Shown: in pieces, positions 54,540 through 62,603 of the stretch
How the letters are laid out: every line of letters starts with the position of its first letter
Position numbering within the stretch: the stretch's first letter is position 1
From: Myxococcota bacterium
GTDB taxonomy: Bacteria; Myxococcota; B64-G9
Direction: 5' to 3'
DNA length: 64,000 nt
Assembly (NCBI GenBank): GCA_022710975.1
Contig: JAKLGA010000005.1
Coordinates: 186,001 to 250,000 of the forward strand
Position numbers and translations under genes: made by a program
Notes under the pieces: generated by a model
What the model saw: the letters and a program-made list of their open reading frames with translations, nothing else
Database searches by the model: none
Told to the model about the DNA's origin: nothing

Positions 54540-57392
54540 TCAGGGCTTGGCCTCGGGGGCAGGAGCGGGAGCGGCGGGCTCGAGCTCGGGGAGCTGGTCC
54601 TGCGGGCCCACCACCGCCAGGGTGTAGGTCCCGAGCTTCAGGTACTCGCGGGCCACCCGGTGCACGTCCCCGGCGGTCACCGCGTGGATCTCCTCGGCGT
54701 ACCTGGTGTGGGCCAGGTGCCCGAGGCCGTACAGCTCCGAGAAGGCCATGGCCGCGGCCCGGGCCGAGGTGCGCTGCAGCGAGATGGCCTGCGTGCCGAT
54801 CAGGTAGCGCTTGGCGCGCTCGATCTCCTCGGCCGGGAGCGGGCCGGCCAGGACGCCCTGGAGCTCCGCCAGCAGCGCGTCGCGGGCCTCCCCGGCGCGC
54901 TTCGGGTCCACGCCCAGGTAGAAGGCCACGTAGCCTGGCTCGATGCCCTCCAGCGAGAAGCCCGACAGCGAGTAGGCCAGCGAGCGCTTGTCCCGCAGCT
55001 CGACGAACAGCCGGCCGCCCTGGCCGGTGAGCACCGCCATGAGCACCTCGAGCGCGTGCCGGTCGCCGCCGGTCAGGCGCGCGCCCATGAACCCGAGCAC
55101 CAGGTGGGCCTGGGCCCGGGCGCGGTGGCGGGTGACCACCCGCACGCCCCCGGCGGGCGGATCGAGCGGCAGCGACGGGGCCGCCGCCGGCTTGGCCCCG
55201 GCCGCCCGCGCGCCGAACAGGGCCTTGGCCTGCTCCACCACCCGGGCCGTGTCCACGTCGCCCACCACCGCCAGCACCATGCGCTCGGGGGTGAACCAGC
55301 GCTCGAGGAGCTCCCGCAGCTGCGCCCGCCGGAAGGCGGCCACGCTCTTGCGGGTGCCCAGGATCGGCAGGCGGTAGGGGTGCTGCGGGTAGAGGCTGGC
55401 GGCGAACAGATCGAAGGCCAGCCCCGACAGGTTGTCGTCGCGAGCGGTGATCTCGTCCAGGGTGAGCTCTCGCTCGCGCTTGATCTCCTTCTCCGGCAGG
55501 GTGGGCTTGCGCAGGCAGTCGGCGAACAGCGCCAGCCCGCGGTCCAGGTGGCGGGCGGGGAACTCGGCTCGCAGGCCGAAGGTGTTGCGCCCGGAGAAGC
55601 CGTCCATGCCACCGGCCAGGGCGTCCACCTCCCGGGCCACGTCCCCGGCCGACAGCGCGCCGCAGCCCTTGGTCAGCAGCCCGGCCAGGAAGCTGTGGAC
55701 GCCGGCGTCCGCCGCGGTCTCGTAGCGCGAGCCACCCAGGAACACGGCCCGCAGCGCCACCAGCGGGATGCTGTGATCCTCCTGCACGATCAGCACCGGC
55801 CCCTGGCGAAGCTTCACCCGGGTGACCCCGCCCTCGGCCGCGCTCTCCTCCACCTCGGCCGCAGGAGCCGCGGCCAGCCCCCGCTCGACCGCCGCGGCCA
55901 GCGCCAGGCGCGTGAGCCGGGGGGGCGGCTCCCCCTCCCCGGCCGGAGCCAGGGCCGCGCTCGGGCGCGGGGCGAGCGCCACCGCGCTCAGGTTGGAGGA
56001 GGTGAGGTACGCGCGGGCCACCCGCTGCAGGTCGGCCGGGGTGACCGCCAGCACCCGGCCGAGGTAGGTGTCGCCGAAGGTCGGATCGCCGGTCAGCGAC
56101 TGGTGGTAACCCACCCGCCGGGCCAACCCCTGCACGGTCTCGCCCTGGTAGAGCGCGTCGCTCTCCACCATGGCCTTCACCTTGGCCAGCTCGGCGGCGC
56201 CCACCGGGCTCGCGGCCAGGCGGGCCACCTCGAGGGCCATGCGCTCGACGGCCTCGAGCGCCTGGGCCGGCCGGCAGGTCAGCCCGGCCACCAGCAGGCC
56301 CGCGTCCTGGGGGCTGTAGGCGTAGGCGTAGGCGTCGCTGACCAGCCCGCGCCCGCGCTTCAGCTCCTGGTTGAAACGCGAGCTCTCGCCCTGGCCGAGC
56401 ACGGTGGCCAGCACGTCGAGCGCGGCGGCGTCCGGGTGGCGCACGTCGGGGATGTGCCAGGCCAGGCCCACGTGGGTCTCCTGGATCTCGTCCTCCAGCA
56501 CCCGGGCGCGGAGTCGGCGCTGGGCCGGCTCGGCCGGGCGCTCCGGCAGCGCGGCGGTCCGGTCCCTGGACCCGGGGAACAGCCGCCGGGCGCGGGCCAC
56601 CACGCCCTCGGGCTGGACGTCGCCGGCCACCACCAGGGTCATGCGCTCGGGCCGGTAGTGCTTGCGGAAGAAGGCCAGGATGGCCGGCCGGTCCACGCCG
56701 GCGACGCTCCTGGCGCTGCCCAGGATGTTGTGCCCGTAGGGGTGCGTCTTGAAGGCGGCCTCGAACAGCAGATCGCCCAGCCAGCGGCCGGGCATGTCGC
56801 GGGTGCGCTTGATCTCCTCGAGCACCACCTTCTTCTCGCGGTCCAGCTCGCCGGCGTCGAAGGCCGAGCGCAGCACCGCGTCGGACAGCACCTCGAGCCC
56901 GAGCTCGAGGTACCGGGAGGCCAGCACCACGTGGTAGACGGTGTGGTCGAAGGAGGTCCAGGCGTTGATCTCCCCGCCAGCCGCCTCGATGGCCTGGGCG
57001 ATCTCGCCCACCCCGCGCTTGTCGGTGCCCTTGAACAGCATGTGCTCGTGGAGGTGGGCCAGACCCGCCTCCTCCGGGCCCTCGTCGGCCGAGCCGACCT
57101 GGACCCAGACCTGGGCCGCCACCACCGGCGCAGAGTGGCTCTCCACCACCAGGATGGTCATGCCGTTCGGCAACCGCGCCCGCGTGATCGCGCCCAAGCG
57201 CTCGAGCTCCACGTCCGCCTCCTCGCCACCGTCCCCGGCCACTCCCTGGGCCTGCGCCGCGGAGGCGCCCGCGGAGGCGCCACCCGCTTCCGGCGCCGGC
57301 CCGCCGGAGGGTCGCACCTCCGGGCTGGCAGCGCAGCCCGCGACGCCCGCCAGGAGCAGTAAAATCATATTGACATTCAAAGGATTACGCAT
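54540..57392 (-). CDS. M16-family zinc peptidase, duplicated, lipoprotein
   Basis: A 950-residue lipoprotein with two M16 (insulinase-like) halves. The signal peptide ends in LAGVAGC (C20), so the mature protein is lipid-anchored. In the first half, HxxEH is H113-x-x-E116-H117 in AGLAHLHEHMLFKGT, with the downstream Glu in KKVVLEEIKRTRD. The second half (~510-945) keeps the fold (VHSFLAGLLTKGCGAL; ERMVLAVVGDVDTARV) but has lost HxxEH, as in the non-catalytic partner subunit of bacterial M16 pairs; here active and inactive halves are fused. It probably degrades peptides at the periplasmic face. ATG 57390-57392 follows CGAGGG. The two small secreted protein genes lie directly upstream. Confidence 0.92.
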   Translation of the reverse strand: MRNPLNVNMILLLLAGVAGCAASPEVRPSGGPAPEAGGASAGASAAQAQGVAGDGGEEADVELERLGAITRARLPNGMTILVVESHSAPVVAAQVWVQVGSADEGPEEAGLAHLHEHMLFKGTDKRGVGEIAQAIEAAGGEINAWTSFDHTVYHVVLASRYLELGLEVLSDAVLRSAFDAGELDREKKVVLEEIKRTRDMPGRWLGDLLFEAAFKTHPYGHNILGSARSVAGVDRPAILAFFRKHYRPERMTLVVAGDVQPEGVVARARRLFPGSRDRTAALPERPAEPAQRRLRARVLEDEIQETHVGLAWHIPDVRHPDAAALDVLATVLGQGESSRFNQELKRGRGLVSDAYAYAYSPQDAGLLVAGLTCRPAQALEAVERMALEVARLAASPVGAAELAKVKAMVESDALYQGETVQGLARRVGYHQSLTGDPTFGDTYLGRVLAVTPADLQRVARAYLTSSNLSAVALAPRPSAALAPAGEGEPPPRLTRLALAAAVERGLAAAPAAEVEESAAEGGVTRVKLRQGPVLIVQEDHSIPLVALRAVFLGGSRYETAADAGVHSFLAGLLTKGCGALSAGDVAREVDALAGGMDGFSGRNTFGLRAEFPARHLDRGLALFADCLRKPTLPEKEIKRERELTLDEITARDDNLSGLAFDLFAASLYPQHPYRLPILGTRKSVAAFRRAQLRELLERWFTPERMVLAVVGDVDTARVVEQAKALFGARAAGAKPAAAPSLPLDPPAGGVRVVTRHRARAQAHLVLGFMGARLTGGDRHALEVLMAVLTGQGGRLFVELRDKRSLAYSLSGFSLEGIEPGYVAFYLGVDPKRAGEARDALLAELQGVLAGPLPAEEIERAKRYLIGTQAISLQRTSARAAAMAFSELYGLGHLAHTRYAEEIHAVTAGDVHRVAREYLKLGTYTLAVVGPQDQLPELEPAAPAPAPEAKP

Positions 57393-57478: not shown

Positions 57479-57766
57479 TCAGCGCGGGCGCGGCCGGGGC
57501 AGGAGCACGTCCTCGATCACCTCCCCGGGCAGGCTGAGCTCGGCCGCGCGGAGCACCGGTGCCTCGGCGCGCGCGGCGCAGGCGCCCGACTCGAAGGCCA
57601 GGCTCGGGTTGCCCGGCAGGCTGAGCGCGCTGGCCGAGAGCACGCCCGCGCGCGCCAGGCCGGGCTCCAGGCTCAGGCGCGCGTGGCCCGCGCCCGGGGC
57701 GAACAGGGTCAGGCTCGCCACCGCGAGCGCCGCCAGCACCAGGTTCCGGGTCGTGTTCGTCTTCAT
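57479..57766 (-). CDS. Small secreted protein A with LSLPGEVIEDVLL motif
   Basis: A 95-residue exported protein that I do not recognise. The signal peptide (NLVLAALAVASLTLFAPG) is cut near GHA-RL. The mature part is about 65 residues and ends with LRAAELSLPGEVIEDVLL, then a basic Pro/Arg tail. The same motif ends the next paralog, at 57888. The ATG at 57764-57766 follows GGAGGCGGCC, identical to the ribosome binding site of the paralog. The promoter region has four 11-base repeats and a -10-like hexamer, arranged as in the paralog, so the two are probably controlled together by an OmpR-type regulator. No Cys, so no disulfide or lipid anchor apart from one Cys in ESGACAARAE. Confidence 0.7.
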   Translation of the reverse strand: MKTNTTRNLVLAALAVASLTLFAPGAGHARLSLEPGLARAGVLSASALSLPGNPSLAFESGACAARAEAPVLRAAELSLPGEVIEDVLLPRPRPR

Positions 57767-57834
57767 GGCCGCCTCCTCTTCCTCTCCTCGCGATGGCCGT
57801 CTTCCCAGCCTCTCGCGCCCAGGATACCCGCCGG

Positions 57835-57874
57835 ACTTCATCGCTCCTTCACCGGGCGGTCATATTTCGGTCAC
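57835..57874 (-). promoter_or_regulatory. Four tandem 11-base Pho-box-like repeats upstream of small protein A
   Basis: On the plus strand the repeats are ACTTCAT (57835), CCTTCAC (57846), CGGTCAT (57857) and CGGTCAC (57868), each seven bases starting exactly 11 apart. Read in the gene's direction they are GTGACCG, ATGACCG, GTGAAGG and ATGAAGT. TATCCT follows eight bases later as a possible -10, about 68 bases before the ATG. Such 11-base direct repeats are the classical site of PhoB/OmpR-type winged-helix regulators. Confidence 0.75.
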
Positions 57875-57887
57875 CGGCGGATGGGGT

Positions 57888-58214
57888 TCAGCGGTCGGCC
57901 AGGGCCTCGGCGGCGCCGCTCGGGGCCAGGGGGACACGCTCGAGCAGCACGTCCTCGATCACCTCGCCCGGCAGGCTCAGCTCGGCCGCGCGGAGCAGCG
58001 GCGTGCCCGCGGCCTGCGGGTCAGAGGCCCGCGCCGGGCCGACCCAGGCGAGCTCGGCTCCGCCGGTCAGGCTGAGCTCGAACGCGCTCGGCGCGTCGGC
58101 CAGCTCGGGCAGGGGCGCCAGGCTCGTGCGCGCCTGGCCCGTCGCCGGGGAGAGCAGGGCGCAGAGCGCCGCCACCACCACCGCCACCTGGATCCGGGTC
58201 GCACACCGCGTCAT
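57888..58214 (-). CDS. Small secreted protein B, paralog of A
   Basis: A 108-residue exported protein. The signal peptide (IQVAVVVAALCALLSPA) is cut near GQA-RT. It shares with the 57479 protein a similar overall layout and the near-identical end LLRAAELSLPGEVIEDVLLE, but the middle differs. This protein continues with RVPLAPSGAAEALADR. The ATG at 58212-58214 follows GGAGGCGGCC. The upstream region has the same four 11-base repeats at the same distance from a -10-like hexamer. It is not in any family I know. The conserved C-terminal motif in an otherwise divergent pair points to a binding or processing signal. Confidence 0.7.
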   Translation of the reverse strand: MTRCATRIQVAVVVAALCALLSPATGQARTSLAPLPELADAPSAFELSLTGGAELAWVGPARASDPQAAGTPLLRAAELSLPGEVIEDVLLERVPLAPSGAAEALADR

Positions 58215-58263
58215 GGCCGCCTCCTTGGATTCTCGTCTGGCCTGGGCCCAGCATCCCACCGGG

Positions 58264-58303
58264 ACATCACGCTCGCTTCACCGACCGGTCATCTTCCTGT
58301 CAT
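58264..58303 (-). promoter_or_regulatory. Four tandem 11-base Pho-box-like repeats upstream of small protein B
   Basis: Plus-strand repeats are ACATCAC (58264), GCTTCAC (58275), CGGTCAT (58286) and CTGTCAT (58297), at exact 11-base steps. In the gene's direction: ATGACAG, ATGACCG, GTGAAGC, GTGATGT. The two inner units are almost the same as those upstream of protein A. GATGCT lies at the same place as TATCCT there, followed in both by GGGC. The site is about 49 bases before the ATG. Confidence 0.75.
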
Positions 58304-58413: not shown

Positions 58414-59742
58414 TCAATGGAGCGAGAGCCGGCCGAGCAGGTCGCGCGGCAGGCGCAGGCGGAAGGACAGCTCGCGCCCCTCGGCCTGGAGCTCGAGGCC
58501 GGCGAGCAGGGCGGCCAGCACGGGCTCGCGGGCCGCCTCGTCGCCCGTGGCCAGGCGCAGGAGCGCCAGGCCGCCGCGAGCCAGGTCGGCCAGGATGCGC
58601 ACCGACTGCGCGTCCTCGGCGAAGGCCAGCGCGTCGAGCTCGAGCTCGGCCCCGAGGCGGGCCTGCAGCAGCAACCCGGCCAGGCCGAGCACGCCGCCTC
58701 GCAGGGAGGGATCGAGTTCGACCTGGCGGACCTGGGCGGCCAGGGCCTGGGGCACGGCCAACAGCCACAGGCCGGCCTCCGGGTGGACGCGCCGGGCGAG
58801 TCCCCACAGCCTCGGGTTGGCCTGGAGGCCGGGCGCCTGCAGGGCGCGCACCTGCAGCGCCCGCCGCAGGCAGCGCTCCTCGCCTACCAGCAGCGTGGCC
58901 GCATCCAGCCGGAGCGCGCCCAGCCGCTCCTCGCGCCCCTCCGCGCCGCGGAGCCCGCTGGGCACGAGGAACAGCTCGAGCTCCCCGAGCCGCTCGCGCA
59001 CGACCGGCCCGGGCTCTTCGGAGGCCTCGCGCAGCGCAGACAGCTCGAGCTCCAGGCTCGCCTTGGTGCCCGGGGAGCCGCGCACGCCGAGCTGCAGCCC
59101 CGGGGCGAGCTCCCGCCAGGCCTGCGCCAGGACGCGGAGCAGGGCCTCGGGTGAGGCGCCGCTGAGCTCGCCCTGCAGGCCGAGCAACCAGCCGTCCAGG
59201 GCGCGCGCGCCGTCGGTGAGATCGAGCGCCAGGGTCAGCCGCCTGAGCTCGCGCAGCCCGAAGCCGAGCCTCGGGCGCAGCTCCCGCTCGAGCTCGGCCG
59301 TCCGGGCGGCGAGCAGCGCCTCGCCCCAGGGGACGCCGCGCAGCCGCTCGAGCTCCACCATCGCCACCACGTCCGCGCCCGCCGGGACGTCCCGCAGCGC
59401 CTCCAGGCCGGGCTGCGTGGCGGCCGAGCGCCGGAGCTCCTCCAGCGCGGCGGCCAGCCCGGGCCCGTCCCCGCGCCAGGCCAGGCACTCGGTCCGCAGG
59501 CCGAGGAGCTCGTCCGTCCCCGCCCCGGGCGCGCGCCCCTCGAGGGCGGCCCCGTAGGCGGCCAGCGCCGCGTCCAGATCGCCGGCCGTGTGCTGCAGAA
59601 ACAGCCCGCGCTGCAGGTCGTCGGGCGCCGGCGCGCGCGCCTCCAGCGGAACGGCCGGGGCCTCACCCCCGGCCGCGGGTGGCCGGGGCAAGCAGAGCAG
59701 GGCGACCGCCAGGGCCACCGCGCCGTGCCGGGCCGCGCTCAT
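58414..59742 (-). CDS. Exported protein of unknown function in the OmpR-type operon
   Basis: A 442-residue exported protein. A signal peptide (AVALAVALLCLPRPPAAGG) leads to a TPR-like helical start (RGLFLQHTAGDLDAALAAYGAAL). Alternating alpha/beta segments rich in Leu and Glu follow (VVAMVELERLRGVPWGEALL; ELRRLTLALDLTDGARALDG; LQLGVRGSPGTKASLELELS). The pattern recalls DUF3352-type proteins such as the one at 46075, but I cannot make a firm match. The ATG overlaps the stop of the response regulator (TCAT at 59739-59742), so it is translated with the regulator. Its place in the kinase-regulator operon suggests a periplasmic accessory to the sensor. Confidence 0.65.
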   Translation of the reverse strand: MSAARHGAVALAVALLCLPRPPAAGGEAPAVPLEARAPAPDDLQRGLFLQHTAGDLDAALAAYGAALEGRAPGAGTDELLGLRTECLAWRGDGPGLAAALEELRRSAATQPGLEALRDVPAGADVVAMVELERLRGVPWGEALLAARTAELERELRPRLGFGLRELRRLTLALDLTDGARALDGWLLGLQGELSGASPEALLRVLAQAWRELAPGLQLGVRGSPGTKASLELELSALREASEEPGPVVRERLGELELFLVPSGLRGAEGREERLGALRLDAATLLVGEERCLRRALQVRALQAPGLQANPRLWGLARRVHPEAGLWLLAVPQALAAQVRQVELDPSLRGGVLGLAGLLLQARLGAELELDALAFAEDAQSVRILADLARGGLALLRLATGDEAAREPVLAALLAGLELQAEGRELSFRLRLPRDLLGRLSLH

Positions 59743-60470
59743 CCGTCCTCGCCTCCCGCCCGTCCTGCGGCCCGGTCCGCCTCGGCCTGGCGCACGAAGC
59801 GGTAGCCCACCCCGCGCACGGTCAGGAAGTGCTCCGGGTGCTCCGGATCGGGCTCGAGCTTCGCGCGCAGCCGGTTGATGAAGTTGTCCACGGTGCGGTC
59901 GGTGCCGAAGTAGTCAAAGCCCCACACCCGATTCAGGATCTCCTGGCGCTCGAGGGCCTCTCCCTCCCGCGACAGGAACAGGTGCAGCAGCCCGAACTCC
60001 TTCTCGGTCATCTCCACCGGTGCGCCGCGCACCAGGACCGTGCGGGCGGTGAAGTCCACCTCCACCTGCCCGAAGGCGACCTGCTCGAGCTTCTGCTCGA
60101 AGCGCCGCTTGCGCCGGAGCACGGCGTGCACCCGGGCGACCAGTTCTTGAAGCCCGAAGGGCTTGGTCATGTAGTCGTCCGCGCCGAGATCCAGCCCGCG
60201 CACCTTGTCGATCTGCTCGCCCTTGGCGGTGAGCACGATCACCGGCACATCCACCTCCCGCCGCCTGAGCTCGCGCAGGACCTCGAAGCCGTTCAGCTTG
60301 GGCATCATCACGTCCAGCAGGATGAGGTCGGGCCGCTTGTCGAGCGCCAGCTCGAGCCCGCGCTCGCCGTCGGCGGCCCGCAGCACCTCGAAGCCCTCGA
60401 AGCGCAGGTTCTTGACCAGCCCCATGGAGATGGCCGGATCGTCCTCGATCACCAGGATGGTCTCCGCCAT
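59739..60470 (-). CDS. OmpR/PhoB-family response regulator
   Basis: A 243-residue regulator. The receiver domain has TILVIEDDPAISMGL, phospho-acceptor D53 (LILLDVMMPKLNG), VIVLTAKGEQIDKVRGLDLG and YMTKPFGLQELV. The C-terminal winged helix has VEMTEKEFGLLHLFLSREGE, the recognition-helix region FGTDRTVDNFINRLRAKLE and the beta-hairpin LTVRGVGYRFV. Regulators of this type bind direct repeats about 11 bases apart, which matches the sites upstream of the two small secreted proteins 1.3-2 kb away. ATG 60468-60470 is chosen because AGGAGAG lies just before it; the ATG five codons upstream overlaps that site. It lies 16 bases after the sensor kinase stop. Confidence 0.94.
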   Translation of the reverse strand: MAETILVIEDDPAISMGLVKNLRFEGFEVLRAADGERGLELALDKRPDLILLDVMMPKLNGFEVLRELRRREVDVPVIVLTAKGEQIDKVRGLDLGADDYMTKPFGLQELVARVHAVLRRKRRFEQKLEQVAFGQVEVDFTARTVLVRGAPVEMTEKEFGLLHLFLSREGEALERQEILNRVWGFDYFGTDRTVDNFINRLRAKLEPDPEHPEHFLTVRGVGYRFVRQAEADRAAGRAGGEDG

Positions 60471-60485
60471 GGACTCTCTCCTCAT

Positions 60486-62603
60486 TCAGGCGCGATCCCC
60501 GGTCGGCGCGAGCGGCAGGCGGACCGTGAAGGTGCTGCCTTCGCCCACCGCGCTCTCCACGCGCACCTCGCCGCCGTGGCCGTGCACGATGTACTGCACC
60601 AGGCTCAGTCCCAGGCCGCTGCCCGACACCTCGGAGGTCAGCGGGGTCTCCACCCGATAGAACTTCTCGAAGATGCGCCCCAGCTCGTGCCGGGGGATGC
60701 CGATGCCGCGGTCGCGCACGTCGAGCTCCAGCTGTCCGTCCGCGACGCGGGCCTCCAGGCCGAGCTCGCGGCGTTCCGTGCTGTACTTGATGGCGTTGGA
60801 GATCAGGTTGATGAGCACCTCGACCAGGGCGTCCCGATCCGCGAGCACCCGCGGCAGCTCCGCGGGCACGCGCACCTCCACCCGGAAGTCGCGCGCGGCG
60901 AGCTCCGAGCGGCAGGCCGCCAGGGCCGCGTCCACCAGCTCACCGAGCGGCTCGGGCGCCAGCCGGTAGGTGCGCCGGCCTGCCTCCATGCGGGAGAAGT
61001 CCAGGATGCGCGCCACCATCCGTGAGAGGCGCTCGCTCTCCTGGGCGATGATCTGCAGGCACTCCTTGCGCTCGGCCTCGTCGCTGGCCCGGTCGAGCAG
61101 CAGCGTCTCGGTGAACATGCGGATCGAGGTGAGCGGGGTGCGTAGCTCGTGGGACACGTTCGAGACGAAGTCCGTCTTGAGCCGGGCCAGGCGGTTCTCC
61201 CGCACCATCAGCCACAGGGTGGCGCTGATGCCGGCCACCAGCACCAGCACCAGGAGCGCCAGCGCCCAGCGGTAGAGCTGGGTGCGGGTGCGGGCCAGGT
61301 CGTCCAGCGTCTCTCCGCCCCGCAGCACCAGGTCGAGCCGCCAGGCGAAACCGCCGTCGCTGATCAGCACCGAGGCGGCCGGCACCTCGCGGTCCAGGTT
61401 GGGCAGGGGCTGGGTGCTCGGCACGAGCTCGGCCTGGGCGGCCTCCACCTCCAGCGCCTCCAGGGTGGCCTGCAGCTCGGGCTCCAGCAGCTCCGGCACC
61501 AGCTCCGCCCCCACCGTCACCTCCCCGCCGCGCAGGAGCACCATGTGCAACGACGGGCCGATGCGCACCGAGCGCAGCTCGGGCAGCTCCGCCAGCGTCC
61601 GGCCGAGCGCGGCGCAGCCCGACAGCAGCTCGGCGCGGTGGGCCTGGGCCGCCAGCAGCCCGGCCAGCGGTCGGACGGCCGGGCGGCTGTCCCCGGTCAG
61701 CAGCCCCGAGAGGCGCGCGGCGACGAAGCGCCGCTGGCCGGCGGAGGCCGGCAGGCCCGGATCGCTCAGCCGGGCGGCCAGCGCCTGGGCCTCCCGCAAG
61801 GCCTCCGCGGGCTGGCCCGCCCACAGGAGCTCCAGCCGCCGGAGCAGCGCGCCCAGCCCCAGGTTGTAGCCGCCGCTGACCACCACCCCGGCGCAGGCCT
61901 CGGCCACGCGAGCCCAGGCGGGCAGCGCCTCCTCCCGCGCGCCGGCCCGATCCAGGCTGCGCGCCAGGCCGTTCAGCCACACGCACCGCTGCGGCCCGAG
62001 GCCGCTCGCCCGCCGGCACTCCTCGCTGGGCGGGACCCCCTGGCCGAAGCTCCGCAGCGCCGCCTGGGCCAGGCAGGCGGCCTCGGCCGGCTCCAGCGCC
62101 TGGCGGGCGAGCAGCGCCTGGTAGTGCGCCGCCGCCGCCCTGGGGTCCGCGGCCTCGAACTCCAGGCGCAGGCCCTCCTCGAGCGGCCCGGCCGGCGCGC
62201 CCTGCCAGGTGGGCAGCGGATCGTCGGGCGCGGGCAGGAGCGGCCGGCCGTCGGCGTCCAGGACGAAGAAGTTGGTCAGCAGGGGGTGCTCGGCCTGCAG
62301 GCGCGCGAAGGCCGCGCCGGGCTCGCGGGCCTGGCGGCGGCCGAGGCGCTCGAGCTGCTCCAGCGCCAGGCCGGACTCCTGGACCAGTCGGCGCAGGCGC
62401 TCCTTGACCTGCCCGGCCAGCTTGTAGGCCACCGGGTAGTACAGCTCGCGGATGCGCTCGAAGGCCGCGTCCCGCTCGTTCTGGATGGCGATCAACCCGA
62501 AGCCGGACAGCAGCAGGCTGGGGATCGAGATGGTGGCGATGACCAGCAGCACCAGCTTGCGCAGCCGGCGGGTGCTGGGGTCGAGGGTACGCTTCGCGCT
62601 CAT
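60486..62603 (-). CDS. Sensor histidine kinase with large periplasmic domain
   Basis: A 705-residue kinase. A transmembrane helix (~17-42; LVLLVIATISIPSLLLSGFG) and a second one (~440-463; ALALLVLVLVAGISATLWL) enclose about 395 periplasmic residues. That region has coiled-coil and TPR-like helical parts (AAHYQALLARQALEPAEAACLAQ) and no domain I recognise. The cytoplasmic part lacks HAMP and goes straight into HisKA (SNVSHELRTPLTSIRMFTE, H485) and HATPase (LINLISNAIKYST; VRDRGIGIPRHE; GSGLGLSLVQYI). The core resembles PhoR-type kinases. It is the first gene of kinase-regulator-exported protein. The ATG at 62601-62603 follows a 84-base gap to the divergent desulfhydrase gene. Confidence 0.93.
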   Translation of the reverse strand: MSAKRTLDPSTRRLRKLVLLVIATISIPSLLLSGFGLIAIQNERDAAFERIRELYYPVAYKLAGQVKERLRRLVQESGLALEQLERLGRRQAREPGAAFARLQAEHPLLTNFFVLDADGRPLLPAPDDPLPTWQGAPAGPLEEGLRLEFEAADPRAAAAHYQALLARQALEPAEAACLAQAALRSFGQGVPPSEECRRASGLGPQRCVWLNGLARSLDRAGAREEALPAWARVAEACAGVVVSGGYNLGLGALLRRLELLWAGQPAEALREAQALAARLSDPGLPASAGQRRFVAARLSGLLTGDSRPAVRPLAGLLAAQAHRAELLSGCAALGRTLAELPELRSVRIGPSLHMVLLRGGEVTVGAELVPELLEPELQATLEALEVEAAQAELVPSTQPLPNLDREVPAASVLISDGGFAWRLDLVLRGGETLDDLARTRTQLYRWALALLVLVLVAGISATLWLMVRENRLARLKTDFVSNVSHELRTPLTSIRMFTETLLLDRASDEAERKECLQIIAQESERLSRMVARILDFSRMEAGRRTYRLAPEPLGELVDAALAACRSELAARDFRVEVRVPAELPRVLADRDALVEVLINLISNAIKYSTERRELGLEARVADGQLELDVRDRGIGIPRHELGRIFEKFYRVETPLTSEVSGSGLGLSLVQYIVHGHGGEVRVESAVGEGSTFTVRLPLAPTGDRA

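Follow-up and report, generated by a model that had tools for sequence, protein, structure and literature searches.

Which regulator reads the repeated sequence elements in front of two small genes of a Myxococcota bacterium, and which genes does it control? The question arises from a 64,000-nucleotide stretch of DNA (hereafter the window), in which an earlier note, made from the letters alone, had described two copies of a four-fold 11-base repeat promoter.

Two four-unit boxes in front of two small genes

Inspection of the sequence confirmed both elements and their coordinates. Box 1 (57835–57874, minus strand), upstream of small protein 1, is composed of the units GTGACCG, ATGACCG, GTGAAGG and ATGAAGT; box 2 (58264–58303, minus strand), upstream of small protein 2, is composed of ATGACAG, ATGACCG, GTGAAGC and GTGATGT. 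Each box covers 40 bp, within which four 7-mers of the RTGA(C) type follow one another at a period of exactly 11 bp. At 8 bp past the fourth unit stands a −10-like hexamer, TATCCT for box 1 (57821–57826, minus strand) and GATGCT for box 2 (58250–58255, minus strand), in both cases followed by GGGC. The window contains two runs of four RTGA units spaced 11 bp apart, and 300 first-order Markov simulations produced none; at periods of 8–10 and 12–15 bp, no such run is present in the window. A classical −35/−10 promoter is absent, and no good −35 element is found at the boxes. The arrangement of seven conserved and four variable bases at an 11-bp period, overlapping the −35 region at a fixed distance to the −10 hexamer and lacking a good −35 of its own, is that of a direct-repeat operator of the OmpR/PhoB family.

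In the direction of transcription, the locus runs from the sensor kinase through the response regulator to P442, a conserved secreted protein encoded in the same operon; then come box 2 with small protein 2, box 1 with small protein 1, and next an M16 peptidase (54540–57392, minus strand). As the earlier note had proposed, the two genes behind the boxes encode paralogous secreted small proteins: small protein 1 (57479–57766, minus strand; 95 amino acids) and small protein 2 (57888–58214, minus strand; 108 amino acids) display 51% protein identity, and both have a signal-peptide-like N terminus. At the C terminus, the two proteins agree in all 18 residues of the peptide LRAAELSLPGEVIEDVLL. The 54-bp block coding for it differs between the copies at five positions, all of them synonymous third positions, and hence the peptide itself appears to be constrained. 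By eye, LRAAELSLPGEVIEDVLL is similar to the ends of P442-family proteins (e.g. VTVPGELI, VQLPGKLL). Searching 58 genomes, including that of the window, yielded no relatives of the small proteins in the 57 others, and neither the small proteins nor P442 match a Pfam or NCBIfam family above cut-off.

The 7-mers of the two boxes are identical at 23 of 28 positions, the spacers at 4 of 12 and the 60 bp upstream at 14 of 60. These figures bear out the claim that the repeats were kept while the remaining intergenic DNA diverged, but the likeness of the boxes is partly a matter of ancestry: the small genes arose by tandem duplication, and hence the agreement between box 1 and box 2 is not independent evidence. 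Such evidence comes from the genomes of relatives. One may ask whether the likeness is a mere relic of this duplication, devoid of any regulatory role, given that the genes are duplicates with approximately 70% DNA identity from the ribosome binding site to near the 3′ end. This reading is scarcely credible, since spacers and flanks are far less alike than the units, and the four-unit layout recurs at unrelated places of the genome and in relatives that do not have the small genes (see below); on these three grounds it was rejected.

The neighbouring regulator and its relatives

The proposed binder is an OmpR/PhoB-family response regulator with Response_reg and Trans_reg_C domains (59739–60470, minus strand). 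Its cognate sensor histidine kinase (60486–62603, minus strand; HisKA and HATPase_c domains) has two transmembrane segments, with some 410 residues of periplasmic domain between them. On the PhoB equivalog model TIGR02154, the regulator scores 217 bits, below the cut-off of 296.2. A better PhoB candidate, located with phoR and phoU at C23:77162–77845, reaches 236.7 bits and is also below the cut-off. The regulator was accordingly rejected as the PhoB of this genome, as it falls short of the model and a separate phoB-phoR-phoU group exists. The two regulators are 43% identical, with differing recognition-helix regions, DRTVDNFINRLRAKLE in the regulator of the window and TRTVDTHVKRLREKLG in the PhoB candidate. 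The regulator of the window is therefore a paralog of PhoB, and in eight genomes the box is linked to its gene by location.

The order kinase, regulator, P442 is conserved in 8/8 relatives of the same family. In seven of these eight (the exception is G004), a four-unit box stands immediately before the P442 ortholog, overlapping the regulator ortholog's stop codon or located behind it; the −10 hexamer keeps the offset seen in the window, with a shift of one base in G002, and the P442-linked boxes of G002 and G007 are weak. In G182, a member of another family whose regulator is 67% identical, the box and its −10 are located at the regulator stop, before a lipoprotein-like gene. In 20 further genomes of the phylum (best regulator match ≤62% identity), nothing comparable follows the regulator. 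P442 in the window (58414–59742, minus strand) overlaps the stop codon of the regulator with its start by 4 bp, and this junction, like that of G004, carries no box, which, like the weakness of the boxes in G002 and G007, counts against the explanation favoured here; in the genome of the window the boxes precede the small genes instead. The P442 protein of G008 ends in a T2SS-T3SS_pil_N domain.

Because the box sits at the stop codon of its gene in relatives, the regulator at 59739–60470 is the likely binder, and the naming of this regulator in the earlier note gains support from seven of the eight family members and from G182. We consider it very probable that the boxes are operators of this regulator, a prediction made from layout and gene neighbourhood.

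The position of the −10 hexamer provides a further line of evidence. Twelve boxes, found without using the −10, were scanned for A at hexamer position 2 and T at position 6. AnnnT occurs at offset 15 in 11 of the 12 (binomial tail 1.4e-15), and the remaining offsets between 7 and 27 give 0–1 of 12 each. With this fixed register and no good −35, the operator layout covering the −35 region that the earlier note had ascribed to an activator of the PhoB/OmpR type holds up well. It is conceivable that the regulator binds and represses, or that another OmpR-family paralog of the genome binds: seven of its regulators reach 1e-45 or better on the PhoB model, and a box next to the −10 might equally stand in the way of the polymerase. 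However, units replacing the −35 element in fixed phase to the −10, with no good −35, constitute the layout of an activated promoter, and synteny points to the regulator at 59739–60470 alone, which makes both variants very unlikely.

Further sites in the genome and in related genomes

A search of the genome and of related genomes for the 11-base-spaced units, as had been suggested earlier, recovered further sites in both. The pattern RTGACN6RTGACN6RTGA displays seven exact matches at six loci in the whole genome and none for the reversed-pattern control. The full signature (four units plus TAnnnT at +15, ≤2 mismatches) matches four times in the 7.1-Mb genome (control 0), namely at both window boxes, at C28:289247–289300 before a small lipoprotein gene, and at C29:15599–15652 between convergent genes. 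In 512 kb of the genome read directly, known sites included, four RTGA units were found only at those four places. Across the nine family genomes, the full signature yields 18 matches versus 4 for the reversed control (three in G006, one in G005). The small lipoproteins behind the C28 box and in G003:C559 are homologous (33% identity over 106 amino acids) and both have full boxes, that of G003 being perfect; the combination of lipoprotein and box is thus present in two genera. One-mismatch matches to three units in relatives are mostly probably due to chance and were left out of the evidence.

The C29 box (L016:10599–10652, minus strand, corresponding to G000:C29:15599–15652) has four perfect units and TAGCCT at the fixed offset. 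It points into no obvious open reading frame, with convergent genes on either side. The transcript predicted from the roughly 70 bp that follow would fold into a strong hairpin whose loop is rich in C and U (−38 kcal/mol, z −4.7); it may represent a small regulated RNA or else a terminator that both genes share. An Rfam search with this candidate gave no meaningful match.

Three-unit TGAC boxes are located at G000:C24:368951–368976 (L018), before an M16 peptidase gene, and at G000:C25:366336–366361 (L019), before a gene for an outer-membrane-like protein. An M16 peptidase gene also adjoins the small genes of the window. At neither of these boxes does the fixed offset show a clear −10, and both count against the explanation that we favour.

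Elsewhere, many contigs of G194 carry the 11-base unit GTGACCCGGCA in tandem arrays. Since the reversed control matches there just as frequently, these arrays represent a minisatellite and not operators. At L293 (G120:C14), and also in G120:C4 and G121, at least five 11-base ATGACTGG-type units precede a gene, a run that exceeds a two-dimer box in length.

Orientation relative to phosphate promoters

On the opposite strand, box 2 reads ACATCAC-GCTTCAC-CGGTCAT-CTGTCAT and contains CTGTCAT, the core of the E. coli Pho box (PMC4415409, PMC10294691). The latter is likewise built of seven conserved and four variable bases in 11-nt direct repeats, which are bound head to tail (PMC4415409). In contrast to the E. 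coli Pho box, TGAC is in sense here and the core is reversed relative to the −10.

A new observation concerns phosphate genes across the phylum (pstS, nptA, pit accessory genes, phoB), at which this half-site is present but faces the other way relative to the −10. The GTCAC-type core lies in sense upstream of pstS in G002, G008 and four other genomes of the phylum, and also at nptA (G005), at DUF47 pit-accessory genes (G007, G109) and at a phoB-like gene (G095). The genome of the window contributes a DUF47 pit-accessory gene on C11 with a sense core, assigned through 31% identity to the G007 protein. At these phosphate-gene sites the −10, where visible, lies about 10 bp past the last unit, whereas the boxes of the window type have the core in antisense, 8 bp from the −10. 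All 14 window-type sites listed (class R) have TGAC in sense, versus GTCA at the phosphate genes. Read in the GTCA direction, both classes tend to have TTCAC-like units first and GTCAY units last, from which we infer that the box is polar in itself and has the appearance of a genuine inversion.

These data bear on the possibility that the boxes are ordinary Pho boxes, bound in reverse by the true PhoB (C23:77162–77845), so that the genes behind them would belong to the phosphate-starvation response and the neighbouring regulator would be irrelevant. Core (CTGTCAT on the plus strand) and 11-bp period are the same, the distance from core to −10 is within about 1 bp of that at pstS- and nptA-type sites, and the half-site core is common to PhoB-type boxes, such that the true PhoB could bind. 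However, the box is tied by position to a regulator other than PhoB in eight genomes, the identified phosphate genes carry the opposite orientation, and the assigned class-R genes include no known phosphate gene. A classical Pho box has its GTCA core in sense, pointing toward the −10, and controls phosphate acquisition; the window-type boxes display the opposite arrangement, and the genes behind them encode small secreted proteins, lipoproteins and P442. Together with the score of the regulator below the PhoB cut-off, this sets the system apart from that of E. coli PhoB, and binding by the true PhoB appears unlikely.

Known systems offer partial parallels. The E. coli Pho box replaces the −35 element and can stand in tandem, as at pstS. 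The earlier note had seen room for two dimers in place of the usual one; the four units agree with two dimers, but these are not unusual for Pho-type promoters. In B. subtilis, PhoP sites consist of four TTAACA-like repeats with 11-bp spacing just upstream of the −10 and serve phosphate. TTAACA is the reverse complement of TGTTAA, and the orientation may match that of the boxes described here, making this a possible precedent; sequence and phylum differ, however, and a separate PhoB exists here. CreB recognizes TTCACN6TTCAC. This site and the Streptomyces PhoP half-site GTTCACC (PMC4415409) share with our boxes the TTCAC/GTCAC-type half-sites and the 11-bp period, whereas regulators and target genes differ. 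In Salmonella, PhoP boxes occur in direct as well as reverse orientation to the −10, and at any one position only one of the two orientations is functional; activity of reverse boxes was seen at distances of 27, 37 or 48 nt to the −10 (PMC3335776). Unlike those, the inverted-looking boxes described here adjoin the −10. As a Salmonella box at a given position works in one orientation, inversion should matter for the contact with the polymerase.

Returning to the regulator at 59739–60470 as the predicted binder, we hypothesize the following mechanism. The histidine kinase would sense a periplasmic signal and activate the adjacent regulator, presumably by phosphorylation. Layout and family suggest that two phosphorylated dimers occupy the four half-sites in head-to-tail order along the same helix face, with units at about −60, −49, −38 and −27 in place of a −35 element. 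A sigma-70-type polymerase would then be recruited to the −10, whose first base lies 15 bp past that of unit 4; the fixed position of this hexamer points to activation rather than repression. Predicted to be switched on are the genes for the two small secreted proteins, genes for small lipoproteins at other loci of this genome and in a related one, and, among the relatives, P442, the secreted protein encoded in the operon itself. Given the signal-peptide-like N termini of the products, the target set may be an envelope or secreted-protein regulon.

We assign the phosphate promoters of the lineage to the true PhoB paralog. It is a tentative, rather doubtful extension of this assignment that the two PhoB-family paralogs share half-site and position, and that the orientation of the box would decide to which of them a promoter belongs, with GTCA in sense for PhoB and phosphate, and TGAC in sense for the envelope-type system.

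For an uncharacterised two-component system, these results predict the operator, the geometry of the promoter and a small number of target genes. If the extension is true, mirror-image operators would insulate two pathways by geometry and not by sequence. Should orientation alone separate the regulator from PhoB, this would bear on how OmpR-family paralogs with nearly the same DNA core avoid cross-activation.
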